Below are positions 41,030-62,384 of a stretch of 64,000 nt of DNA, in pieces. Each line of letters opens with the position of its first letter. The stretch's first letter is position 1. Origin of the DNA: Streptomyces sp. yr375. GTDB lineage: Bacteria > Actinomycetota > Actinomycetes > Streptomycetales > Streptomycetaceae. The notes beneath the pieces are model-generated. The model searched no databases and was not told where the DNA came from. It saw only the letters and a list, made by a program, of their open reading frames with translations. Location of the stretch: NCBI RefSeq assembly GCF_900110755.1, contig NZ_FOFF01000031.1, positions 1-64,000 of the forward strand. Reading direction: 5' to 3'. The position numbers and the translations under genes are program-made.

Positions 41030-41063
41030 TTCCGTTACCCGGAATTTTCAACAAAGTGTTGAC
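41030..41063 (+). promoter_or_regulatory. Adjacent TTCCG and TTCAAC palindromes upstream of uraD
   Basis: TTCCGTTACCCGGAA (41030-41044) is a perfect AllR-like 15-mer. Two bases later TTCAACAAAGTGTTGAC (41047-41063) is a 17-bp palindrome of another type, also seen before allB and aceB. uraD starts at 41140. Confidence 0.75.
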
Positions 41064-56971: not shown

Positions 56972-58606
56972 TCAGCCCTTGAGCTGCTCGTACGCGGGGA
57001 GGGTGAGGAAGTCCGCGTAGTCGTCGTCGAGGGCGACCTCCAGGAGGAGGTCGTGGGCCTGCTGCCAGTGGCCGGCGGTGAAGGCCTCCTCGCCGAGCTC
57101 GGCGCGGATGTTCGCCAGTTCCTCGGCTGCGACCTCGCGGGCCAGCTCGGGCGTCGCCTTGACGGTCTGCCCGCCGTGCTCGAACTCGACGCCGGCGTTG
57201 ATCCACTGCCAGATCTGCGAGCGGGAGATCTCGGCGGTGGCCGCGTCCTCCATGAGGTTGAAGATGGCGACCGCGCCGAGGCCGCGCAGCCAGGCCTCGA
57301 TGTAACGGATGCCGACCTGCACGGCGTTGACGAGACCGGCGTACGTCGGCGCGGCCTTCAGCGAGTCGATCGCGATCAGTTCGCCCGCCTCGACGTGGAC
57401 GTCCTCGCGCAGCCGGTCCTTCTGGTTCGGCTTGTCGCCGAGGACCTTGTCGAAGGACTCCAGGGCGATCGGGACCAGGTCGGGGTGGGCGACCCAGGAG
57501 CCGTCGAAACCGTCGCCGGCCTCGCGGTCCTTGTCGGCGCGGACCTTCTCGAAGGCGACCTTGTTGACCTCGGCGTCCCGGCGGGACGGGATGAAGGCCG
57601 CCATGCCGCCGATCGCGTGCGCGCCGCGCTTGTGGCAGGTGCGCACAAGGAGTTCGGTGTACGCGCGCATGAACGGGGCCGTCATCGTGACCGCGTTGCG
57701 GTCCGGGAGGACGAACTTGGCACCGCCGTCACGGAAGTTCTTGACGATGGAGAACAGGTAGTCCCAGCGGCCCGCGTTCAACCCCGAGGCGTGGTCGCGG
57801 AGTTCGTAGAGGATCTCCTCCATCTCGTACGCGGCCGTGATCGTCTCGATCAGGACGGTGGCGCGGACGGTGCCCTGCGGGATGCCGACGTAATCCTGCG
57901 CGAAGACGAACACGTCGTTCCACAGGCGGGCTTCGAGGTGCGACTCGGTCTTCGGGAGGTAGAAGTACGGGCCCTTGCCGAGGTCGAGCAGACGCTGGGC
58001 GTTGTGGAAGAAGTACAGGCCGAAGTCGACGAGCGCGCCCGGGACCTGACTGCCGTCGGCGTCGACGAGGTGCCGCTCGTTGAGGTGCCAGCCGCGCGGG
58101 CGCATGACGACGGTGGCGAGCTCGCTGTCGTCCTTCAGCGCGTACGACTTGCCCGACCTCGGGTCGGTGAAGTCGATGTTCCGGGTGTACGCGTCGGCCA
58201 GGTTGACCTGACCGAGGACGACGTTCTCCCAGGTCGGCGCGGAGGCGTCCTCGAAGTCCGCGAGCCAGACGCGGGCGCCCGAGTTGAGGGCGTTGATGGT
58301 CATCTTGCGGTCGGTCGGGCCGGTGATCTCGACCCGGCGGTCGTTCAGCGCCGCGGGGGAGGGGGCGACCCGCCAGGAGTCGTCCGCGCGGATCGCGGCG
58401 GTCTCCGGGAGGAAGTCGAGCGTGGAGGTGCGGGCGATCTCGGCGCGGCGCTCGGCGCGGCGGGCGAGGAGCTCGTCACGGCGCGGCGTGAACCGCCGGT
58501 GCAGCTCGGCCACGAAGGCGAGCGCCGCCTCGGTGAGGACCTCCTCCTGCCGCGGCAGGGGCTCGGCGTCGACGATGGCCAGCGGGGACGGCGCTGGTGC
58601 GGACAT
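56972..58606 (-). CDS. aceB: Malate synthase A
   Basis: 544 residues from ATG 58606. Malate synthase TIM barrel: [40 protein letters not shown] with the catalytic Arg, [40 protein letters not shown] and [20 protein letters not shown] with the catalytic Asp. It condenses glyoxylate with acetyl-CoA to malate. With AllR-like sites at its promoter, this copy serves glyoxylate from allantoin rather than a glyoxylate shunt; no isocitrate lyase is nearby. Confidence 0.96.
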
Positions 58607-59942: not shown

Positions 59943-60740
59943 CTAGGCCGCCGGGCCCGAACTCGTCAGCGCTTCCGACAGTTCCACCGCCACCTGTTGC
60001 AGGACCGGCACGATCCGCTCGATGGCCGACTCCGTGACGCGGCCGGCCGGGCCGGAGATGGAGATGGCCGCGGCGGTGGGGGAGTCCGGCACGGTCACCG
60101 CCAGGCAGCGGACGCCGATCTCCTGCTCGTTGTCGTCGACCGCGAACCCGGTCCGGCGTACGTCCGCGAGCGCGGCGAGGAAGCCGTCGGGTGTGGTGAT
60201 CGTCTTCTCGGTGGCGGCGGGCATGCCGGTGCGGGCGAGCAGGGCGCGCACCTCGCCGTCCGGGAAGCCCGCGAGGAGCGCCTTGCCGACGCCCGTGGAG
60301 TGCGGCAGCACCCGGCGTCCGACCTCGGTGAACATCCGCATCGAGTGCTTGGACGGCACCTGCGCCACGTACACGATCTCGTCGCCGTCGAGCAGCGCCA
60401 TGTTCGCCGTCTCGCCGGTCTCCTCGACCAGGCGGGCCAGGTAGGGGCGGGCCCAGGTGCCCAGCAGCCGGGACGCGGACTCGCCGAGCCGGATCAGCCG
60501 CGGGCCCAGCGCATAGCGGCGGTTGGTCTGCTGGCGGACGTAACCGCAGGCCACCAGGGTGCGCATCAGACGGTGGATGGTGGGCAGTGGCAGCCCGCTG
60601 CTCGCGGAGAGTTCGCTCAGGCCCACCTCGCCTCCCGCGTCCGCCATCCGCTCCAGCAGATCGAAGGCGCGCTCGAGGGACTGGACCCCTCCGCCGGCGG
60701 ATTTGGCGGAGTCGGTGGTGCTGGCGCTGGACGTCGGCAC
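59943..60740 (-). CDS. allR: AllR, IclR-family repressor of allantoin genes
   Basis: 265 residues from ATG 60740. N-terminal winged helix (about 20-80): VQSLERAFDLLERMADAGGE, LSELSASSGLPLPTIHRLMR then TLVACGYVRQ. The IclR effector domain follows: EETGETANMALLDGDEIVYV, LPHSTGVGKALLAGFPDGEV, GFAVDDNEQEIGVRCLAVTV. Relatives repress allantoin genes and bind allantoate or glyoxylate. Next to allB, with paired palindromes at its own promoter, so autoregulation is likely. Confidence 0.9.
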   Translation of the reverse strand: MPTSSASTTDSAKSAGGGVQSLERAFDLLERMADAGGEVGLSELSASSGLPLPTIHRLMRTLVACGYVRQQTNRRYALGPRLIRLGESASRLLGTWARPYLARLVEETGETANMALLDGDEIVYVAQVPSKHSMRMFTEVGRRVLPHSTGVGKALLAGFPDGEVRALLARTGMPAATEKTITTPDGFLAALADVRRTGFAVDDNEQEIGVRCLAVTVPDSPTAAAISISGPAGRVTESAIERIVPVLQQVAVELSEALTSSGPAA

Positions 60741-60820: not shown

Positions 60821-60856
60821 TTCTGCTTGTCGGAATACTAATTCCGCTTTGTGGAA
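60821..60856 (-). promoter_or_regulatory. Paired AllR-like operators at the allR promoter
   Basis: TTCTGCTTGTCGGAA at 60821 and TTCCGCTTTGTGGAA at 60842 start exactly 21 bp apart, 80-115 bp before the allR start. Confidence 0.8.
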
Positions 60857-60941
60857 ACGTCCAGAGTGGCGGTGGTCGGCGATGGCGGGTGCACTGGGGA
60901 AAGTGTGCCCTTGACGGTACGAAGGCGGGAGTGAAGACTCC

Positions 60942-60973
60942 TTCAACAGAACGTTGAATTCCGTTACGTGGAA
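60942..60973 (+). promoter_or_regulatory. TTCAAC and TTCCG palindromes upstream of allB
   Basis: TTCAACAGAACGTTGAA (60942-60958) is immediately followed by TTCCGTTACGTGGAA (60959-60973). No second TTCCG site lies 21 bp away; the 11-bp array follows instead. Confidence 0.75.
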
Positions 60974-60980
60974 GTTTCTG

Positions 60981-61035
60981 ACGGAAAACGAGCGGAACAC
61001 GAGCGGAAAACAAGCGGAAATCAAGCGGAACACGA
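60981..61035 (+). repeat. Five 11-bp repeats with phased CGGAA in the allB leader
   Basis: Five units of the form GCGGAAMAMRA begin at 60981, 60992, 61003, 61014 and 61025. CGGAA recurs at exactly 11-bp steps, ending a few bases before the allB ribosome site (GAGAGGGG). Confidence 0.9.
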
Positions 61036-61046
61036 GAGGGGTCCGG

Positions 61047-62384
61047 GTGTCCGACGCCGAACTGGTACTGCGCTCGACGCGCGTCATCACTCCCGAAGGG
61101 GAGCGGCCCGCCGCGGTCGCCGTCGCGGGCGGCGAGATCACGGCCGTCCTGCCGTACGACGCCCCCGTCCCCGAGGAAGCCCGGCTGGAAGACTTCGGCG
61201 ACGACGTCCTGCTGCCCGGCCTGGTCGACACGCACGTGCATGTCAACGACCCCGGCCGCACCCACTGGGAGGGCTTCTGGACCGCCACGCGCGCGGCGGC
61301 GGCCGGCGGCATCACCACCCTCGTCGACATGCCCCTCAACTCCCTCCCGCCGACCACCACGGTCGAGCACCTCCGCGTCAAGCAGCGGGTCGCCGCCGAC
61401 AAGGCGCACGTCGACGTCGGCTTCTGGGGCGGCGCGCTCCCCGACAACGTCAAGGACCTGCGCCCGCTGCACGACACCGGCGTCTTCGGCTTCAAGGCGT
61501 TCCTCTCCCCGTCGGGCGTGGACGAGTTCCCGCACCTCGACCGGGACGGACTCGCCGCGTCGCTCGCCGAGATCGCCGCCTTCGACGGCCTGCTGATCGT
61601 GCACGCCGAGGACCCGCACCACCTGGCCGCCGCCCCGCAACAGGGCGGCCCCAAGTACGCCGACTTCCTGGCCTCCCGCCCCCGCGACGCCGAGGACACG
61701 GCCATCGCGCACCTCGTCGCCGAGGCGAAACGCCTCCACGCGCGCGTGCACGTCCTGCACCTCTCCTCCAGCGACGCGCTGCCGCTGATCGCCGCCGCGA
61801 AGGCGGAGGGCGTCCGCGTCACGGTCGAGACCTGCCCGCACTACCTGACCCTCACTGCCGAGGAAGTCCCGGACGGGGCAAGCGAGTTCAAGTGCTGCCC
61901 GCCCATCCGCGAGTCCGCCAACCAGGACCTGCTGTGGCAGGCCCTCGCGGACGGCACCATCGACTGCGTGGTCACCGACCACTCCCCGTCCACGGCCGAC
62001 CTGAAGACCGACGACTTCGCGACCGCGTGGGGCGGCATCTCCGGCCTCCAACTGAGCCTGGCGGCCGTCTGGACGGAGGCGCGCAGGCGCGGCCACGGCC
62101 TGGAGGACGTCGTCCGGTGGATGTCCGCGCGCACCGCCGCCCTCGCGGGCCTCACCCGCAAGGGCGCGATCGAGGTGGGCCGCGACGCCGACTTCGCCGT
62201 CCTCGCCCCCGACGAGACCTTCACCGTCGATCCGGCCGCCCTCCAACACCGCAACCGCGTCACGGCGTACGCCGGCAAGACCCTGTCCGGCGTCGTGAAG
62301 TCCACCTGGCTGCGCGGCGAACGGATCGTCGCCGACGGCGAGTTCACCGACCCGAAGGGCCGCCTCCTCACCCGCACCCCCTGA
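61047..62384 (+). CDS. allB: Allantoinase
   Basis: 445 residues from GTG 61047 (GAGAGGGG upstream). Cyclic amidohydrolase with binuclear metal site: HxH in [17 protein letters not shown], the carboxylated Lys in [12 protein letters not shown], His in LLIVHAEDP and VHVLHLSSS, Asp in [22 protein letters not shown] is typical of allantoinase over dihydropyrimidinase. It hydrolyses allantoin to allantoate. The longer upstream frame would encode the 11-bp repeats, so GTG 61047 is chosen. Followed by alc after 92 bp. Confidence 0.95.

Follow-up and report, generated by a model that had tools for sequence, protein, structure and literature searches.

Why does the leader of an allantoinase gene carry five evenly spaced copies of what appears to be one half of a regulator's operator? 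In the window, by which we mean the whole 64,000-nucleotide stretch of Streptomyces sp. yr375 DNA that was analysed, CGGAA starts at positions 60982, 60993, 61004, 61015 and 61026, with an exact period of 11 bp, shortly before allB. We analysed this array together with the surrounding genes and with the corresponding leaders of related genomes. The features of the locus are the following.

60982..61036, forward strand: array of five 11-bp units (CGGAA count, Tandem Repeats Finder, shuffles)
61034..61041, forward strand: inferred allB ribosome site GAGAGGGG, sharing the final GAG of the array (61034-61036)
61047..62384, forward strand: allB, allantoinase (TIGR03178, 640 bits, cut-off 358)
60911..60939, forward strand: inferred allB promoter (TTGACG, 17 bp, AAGACT), kept in most of the relatives' leaders printed
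59943..60740, reverse strand: IclR-family regulator, AllR by position (PF09339 and PF01614)
56972-58606, reverse strand: malate synthase

The array and the allB leader

The units follow one another head-to-tail as CGGAAAACGAG, CGGAACACGAG, CGGAAAACAAG, CGGAAATCAAG and CGGAACACGAG. CGGAA is invariant among them, with variation at positions 6, 7 and 9, and the base before it is G or A in all five, so that every unit fits RYGGAA. Tandem Repeats Finder delimits the array at 60982-61036 (period 11, 5.0 copies, 84% matches, no indels, score 75), within one base of the 60981-61035 given in the original prediction. Such a score is not exceptional in the window, where seven other tandem-repeat rows of the same program reach at least 70. 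A pattern of three CGGAA-N6 units with at most two mismatches has three matches in the window, all of them in the array, against 0.14 expected, and none of 100 dinucleotide shuffles reached three. The linkers between the units are alike at 17 of 24 positions (0.71), and at 14 of 16 when their first two bases are set aside (a hand count on the same rows). Given this high likeness, the array is a tandem duplication, and its constant period and high identity are those of a minisatellite (VNTR).

The allB gene has its GTG start codon at 61047. The GAG that closes the array also belongs to the ribosome site, which the array does abut, as had been proposed. The reading frame is open back to a TTG at 60954, but a longer protein is disfavoured because most relatives share the GTG and its ribosome site, and also because 11 is not divisible by 3. 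Further upstream, most of the allB leaders printed keep the series TTGAC, spacer, AAGACT, followed by TTCAACAGAACGTTGAA or a near match to it. A strict scan for the sigma-70 consensus made no call at 60911-60939; it is from the conserved arrangement that we infer a promoter there, whose transcription start would lie under or close to the first palindrome. If this promoter is right, the array would be transcribed, at roughly +36 to +90.

A transcribed, purine-rich leader of CGGAA repeats adjoining the ribosome site might act in the RNA, as the original prediction had also suggested, and its effect would then be on translation or stability. The leader does not fold unusually well (z = -0.34; 67 of 200 shuffles were at least as stable), and Rfam gave no match at E up to 1. 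Among species, the leaders vary widely in sequence and in length (13 to 124 nt), and a role in RNA gives no expectation of the helical spacing described below. Action through the mRNA leader is thus quite improbable.

Putative operator palindromes near the array

The regulator gene is divergent from allB, which is itself followed by the allantoicase gene. Against NF007548, the NCBIfam equivalog model of Escherichia coli AllR, the regulator scored 119.8 bits and did not reach the cut-off of 406; it also stayed below the cut-offs of the other NCBIfam models listed, so that 'AllR' is a name by position only. The palindromes between the two genes are as follows.

60842..60856, no strand: allR-side palindrome TTCCGCTTTGTGGAA, matching TTCCRYNNNRYGGAA
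60942..60958, no strand: conserved palindrome TTCAACAGAACGTTGAA, adjoining the operator palindrome (core in 175 of 180 loci)
60959..60973, no strand: operator palindrome TTCCGTTACGTGGAA, matching TTCCRYNNNRYGGAA, whose right half RYGGAA is the core of the array

TTCCRYNNNRYGGAA corresponds to a form of the group-1 motif of the IclR family (PMC8222616). Sites 60842 and 60959 fit the group-1 pattern TTYCRY-W3-RYGRAA as TTCCRYNNNRYGGAA, the W3 of site 60959 being TAC, one base off that pattern. With at most one mismatch, TTCCRYNNNRYGGAA occurs seven times in the window, compared with 1.09 expected, and none of 100 shuffles reached seven.

34982: upstream of gcl (glyoxylate carboligase)
40190 and 40211, 21 bp apart: upstream of hyi-glxR
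41030: upstream of uraD
58709: upstream of aceB
60842 and 60959: upstream of allR and allB, respectively

The genes behind all seven are allantoin or glyoxylate genes. The assignment of hyi (315 bits) is below its cut-off of 353, and its palindrome falls within the longest ORF, yet before the region of family similarity, which begins at residue 44; the palindrome of uraD lies just before the longest ORF, in which the family match begins at residue 34. The seven sites appear to form a compact allantoin/glyoxylate regulon within one window. Since all of them precede such genes, the identification of CGGAA as the half-site of the local IclR-type regulator is supported by a putative regulon, beyond mere resemblance. 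The earlier proposal that CGGAA is the right half of an AllR-like palindrome is thus backed by seven palindromes in a window that also holds an IclR-family gene beside the array. The array itself forms no such palindromes: even when one mismatch was allowed, TTCCRYNNNRYGGAA matched nothing within 60982-61036.

Among relatives, the palindrome TTCCG-N5-YGGAA is found with at most one mismatch in 73 of 109 leaders, and exactly in 58 of them. The adjoining TTCAAC-N5-GTTGAA is the best-kept element of the allB promoter in these relatives, ahead of the TTCCG palindrome. Its single exact copy in the genome is the one at allB (60942-60958), and it was rejected as a marker of a wider regulon; similar copies stand beside the palindromes of uraD (41047-41063, one mismatch) and, as a looser match, of aceB (58709). 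Genome-wide, TTCCRYNNNRYGGAA is found in 17 places, of which 14 were examined in addition to allB itself and two are without a locus. Outside the window, three are clearly inter-ORF by a crude filter (L266, L274 and L275) and one, L267, is near a contig end. The L266 site faces a pyruvate kinase gene, and NCBIfam models gave no match at E 1e-10 to the tested neighbours of L274 and L275; given these sites and their neighbours, we make no claim of a TTCCRYNNNRYGGAA regulon beyond the window. At L266 (1501 onward; G000:C21:144487 onward), TTCCGTCTGGCGGAA is followed by two direct CGGAA at 9- and 11-bp steps, a half-site architecture like that of allB yet upstream of an unrelated gene.

The original prediction placed the five copies on one helix face. 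This holds inside the array, whose 11-bp period keeps the phases of its units close together (R = 0.91 at 10.5 bp per turn), and fails relative to the operator. The array starts 13 bp past the right arm (TGGAA, 60969), which turns its units by about 86 to 154 degrees from that arm at the same helical pitch. The array is therefore a quarter turn or more out of line with the operator arm.

Half-site spacing in the leaders of other species

A search with the allB protein matched all 295 genomes of the genus at E ≤0.001, the weakest matches being probably other amidohydrolases, and a DNA search with the promoter and gene start matched 390 of 392 genomes. The leaders compared come from 175 loci (138 unique) in about 150 of the 392 genomes, those most like the window in allB, which means that distant species are under-sampled. 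The comparison set has one genome per species. Contig stretches were also obtained for 12 of 20 requests, 8 of them being short whole contigs, and none of these stretches contributed to the counts. A recognisable leader core was absent from 5 of 180 loci (1 of 110 in an earlier count).

For the count of spacings, the leader of the window was removed and 36 of the other 137, shorter than 40 nt, were left out. The remaining 101 unique leaders hold 17 adjacent YGGAA pairs at 9-11 bp and 17 at 18-23 bp; at other spacings there are 2 at 6 bp, 3 at 13 bp and 6 at 30 bp or more. When a single leader was kept for each of 37 clusters, made by a crude similarity clustering, 7 pairs were at 9-11 bp, 5 at 18-22 bp and 2 at 13 bp. 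Shuffles that preserved dinucleotides and kept the first 15 bases fixed gave means of 0.32, 0.55 and 0.31 for the same classes, with no more than 3 in 1,000 for any of them. The 4-mers that recur most often at 9-11 bp are CGGA (21), GGAA (19) and GAAG (16), followed by GTTA (11). The helical spacing of half-sites noted in the original prediction is therefore found again in other species, as direct YGGAA pairs at 9-11 bp in their allB leaders. The class around 20 bp is partly a second whole palindrome, which is a known tandem arrangement of the IclR family.

The linkers between the half-sites of other species are alike at 0.46 of all positions. The two linker bases next to the half-site probably belong to it, and beyond them the likeness falls to 17 of 53 (0.32), compared with 0.33 from composition. 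These linkers being no more alike than composition predicts, the half-sites of other species are not simple tandem copies. Judged by their sequences, direct half-sites at one-turn spacing look selected in these species, as protein contacts would leave them, and old duplications with drifted linkers may lie behind them. The 9-11 bp trait occurs in 15 unique leaders besides that of the window. In a tree of 72 allB rows, in which seven genomes appear twice and 16 rows (including that of the window) have the trait, it requires 10 changes, and well-supported branches make at least 6 of these unavoidable. The rows with the trait also group together on the tree: shuffling gave a mean of 14.5 changes, and 2 of 500 shuffles were as low. 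We regard this recurrence of helically spaced direct half-sites across the allB leaders of the genus as a more valuable result than the array.

More than two consecutive steps of 9-11 bp were found in no other leader of the 175 loci compared, and the array is thus absent from them. In the genome nearest on the allB tree (G375, 92% identity), there is a single CGGAA, after which the leader ends CGCACGAGAGGGG. The array is lineage-specific among the genomes compared. It also differs in its offset from the operator: the extra half-sites of other species have a mean phase of -20 degrees (R = 0.69, n = 36 offsets, second palindromes included). The 13-bp step is found in three other unique leaders as well.

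Among characterised systems, the nearest case appears to be PcaU. As described in PMC8222616, the operators of PcaU, PobR and HmgR consist of a palindrome and an external direct half-site, which PcaU, itself of the IclR family, requires as a third half-site. The allB locus resembles these systems in its predicted palindromic operator and its candidate direct half-sites about one turn apart, beside an IclR-family gene. It differs in having five direct predicted half-sites at an exact 11-bp period, made by tandem duplication, and in the start of the array 13 bp from the palindrome, whereas the extra half-site of the PcaU type lies about 10 bp from it and in register. The tandem palindromes of the family, 18-22 nt apart (PMC8222616), have likely counterparts in the hyi-glxR promoter (40190 and 40211) and in many relatives' allB leaders; the array, which has no left half-sites, is not a set of palindromes. 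Finally, it resembles bacterial minisatellites in its head-to-tail 11-bp units outside a gene, in one lineage among the genomes compared, but the core of its unit equals the half-site of the adjacent operator. The literature searched, a scope that leaves the S. coelicolor AllR study outside, gave no description of such an array, and we do not claim that it is unpublished.

Possible repressor contacts or a minisatellite

We tentatively prefer, at somewhat less than even confidence, to see the array as a tandemly amplified, weakly bound auxiliary half-site for an IclR-type repressor. The right half-site (RYGGAA) would have been amplified in the allB leader, directly downstream of two operator palindromes, and would offer the neighbouring repressor (AllR by position) additional places of weak contact. 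A dimer or tetramer anchored at the palindromes would put a single DNA-binding domain on each of these, and together the contacts would stabilise repression or act as a graded roadblock. The original prediction had suggested that the array could titrate or polymerise the repressor. Both the binding of the regulator to the array and its effect on allB expression are what we infer here. Several observations are consistent with this reading: the core of the array is the half-site of the regulon palindrome, in all five units; the one-turn spacing recurs in other species with linkers at chance likeness, and its 10 changes on the allB tree point the same way; and PcaU, in the account of PMC8222616 cited above, sets a precedent for a required direct half-site. 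Other observations count against it. The array is out of register with the operator arm, unlike the average extra half-site of other species, its units lack the left half-sites that a palindrome would require, and no other leader compared exceeds two consecutive steps. The 20-bp class elsewhere is in part a second palindrome, CGGAA triples occur at 16 places in the genome, and tandem duplication explains the repetition without selection.

This last point leads to the MINISATELLITE rival, a close one and nearly as credible, which the original prediction did not list: a neutral minisatellite, in which slippage duplicated an 11-bp segment containing CGGAA and merely lengthened the leader, the stretch from operator to ribosome site being tolerant of length changes. 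The linker likeness within the array fits this well, as does the one CGGAA at the same place in the nearest relative. In other species, repeats with unrelated units stand in the same leader segment, from operator to ribosome site (L238, L350 and L329, by eye), so that this segment looks like a hot spot of tandem duplication. The pattern CGGAA-N4-7-CGGAA-N4-7-CGGAA has 25 matches in the genome, against 11 for its reversed control; they fall at 16 places, and three of the matches are the allB array. Of ten other loci examined, five are outside the ORFs retained by a crude composition filter; one has seven CGGAA at 10-bp spacing. This seven-copy series, at L354 (G000:C26:42772-42836), and a degenerate 11-bp CGGAA array at L036 (G000:C34:5568) both lie outside any crude-filter ORF.

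Across the genus, triples of CGGAA-N6 occur in 118 of 295 genomes and those of CGGAA-N5 in 104 of 295. A genus-wide CGGAA-N6 element was accordingly rejected, arrays of 10 bp being about as common. In both searches, the control with the reversed pattern seems to give lower values than the pattern itself, but we place little weight on it because its dinucleotides differ. The allB operator was absent from the printed flanks of 13 of the at least 80 CGGAA-N6 loci and of the genome's own second array. With CGGAA minisatellites in the genome and genus, and other repeats in the leaders, a chance duplication is entirely plausible. What speaks against it is that the core of the unit is the half-site of a regulator whose operator sits 9 bp away, and that GGAA recurs at helical spacing in other leaders without linker likeness. 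Within the array, CGGAA is also constant from unit to unit, against variation at three of the six remaining positions, a weak argument given the few changes.

The near equality of 10- and 11-bp triples across the genus also bears on a further candidate, another protein that recognises directly repeated sites spaced by roughly one helical turn. Some actinobacterial response regulators are known to have direct-repeat operators with a period near 11 bp, and the exact 11-bp period would suit such a protein; the near equality argues against it. Phased A-runs that bend the DNA are a variant of this explanation, and those of the array are just 2 to 4 bases long. We consider this whole class highly improbable; even taken together with a role in RNA, it stays rather improbable.

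The preferred reading, of an amplified auxiliary half-site, can be extended to the genus, in a form that we regard as unlikely. The allB leader would be a landing strip, on which an IclR-type repressor spreads from the palindrome along half-sites one turn apart. The number of half-sites would set the strength of repression, as an evolving, countable rheostat of single half-sites; point mutation would alter that number in most lineages, and tandem duplication would have done so in this one.

Either outcome for the array would be informative. An unbound array would be a clear-cut case of a minisatellite with a core resembling the operator next to it, and a warning for motif-based prediction of regulons. 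If the array is bound, related species would offer a natural series, from one to six half-sites, for the effects of number and phase on repression by the IclR family.
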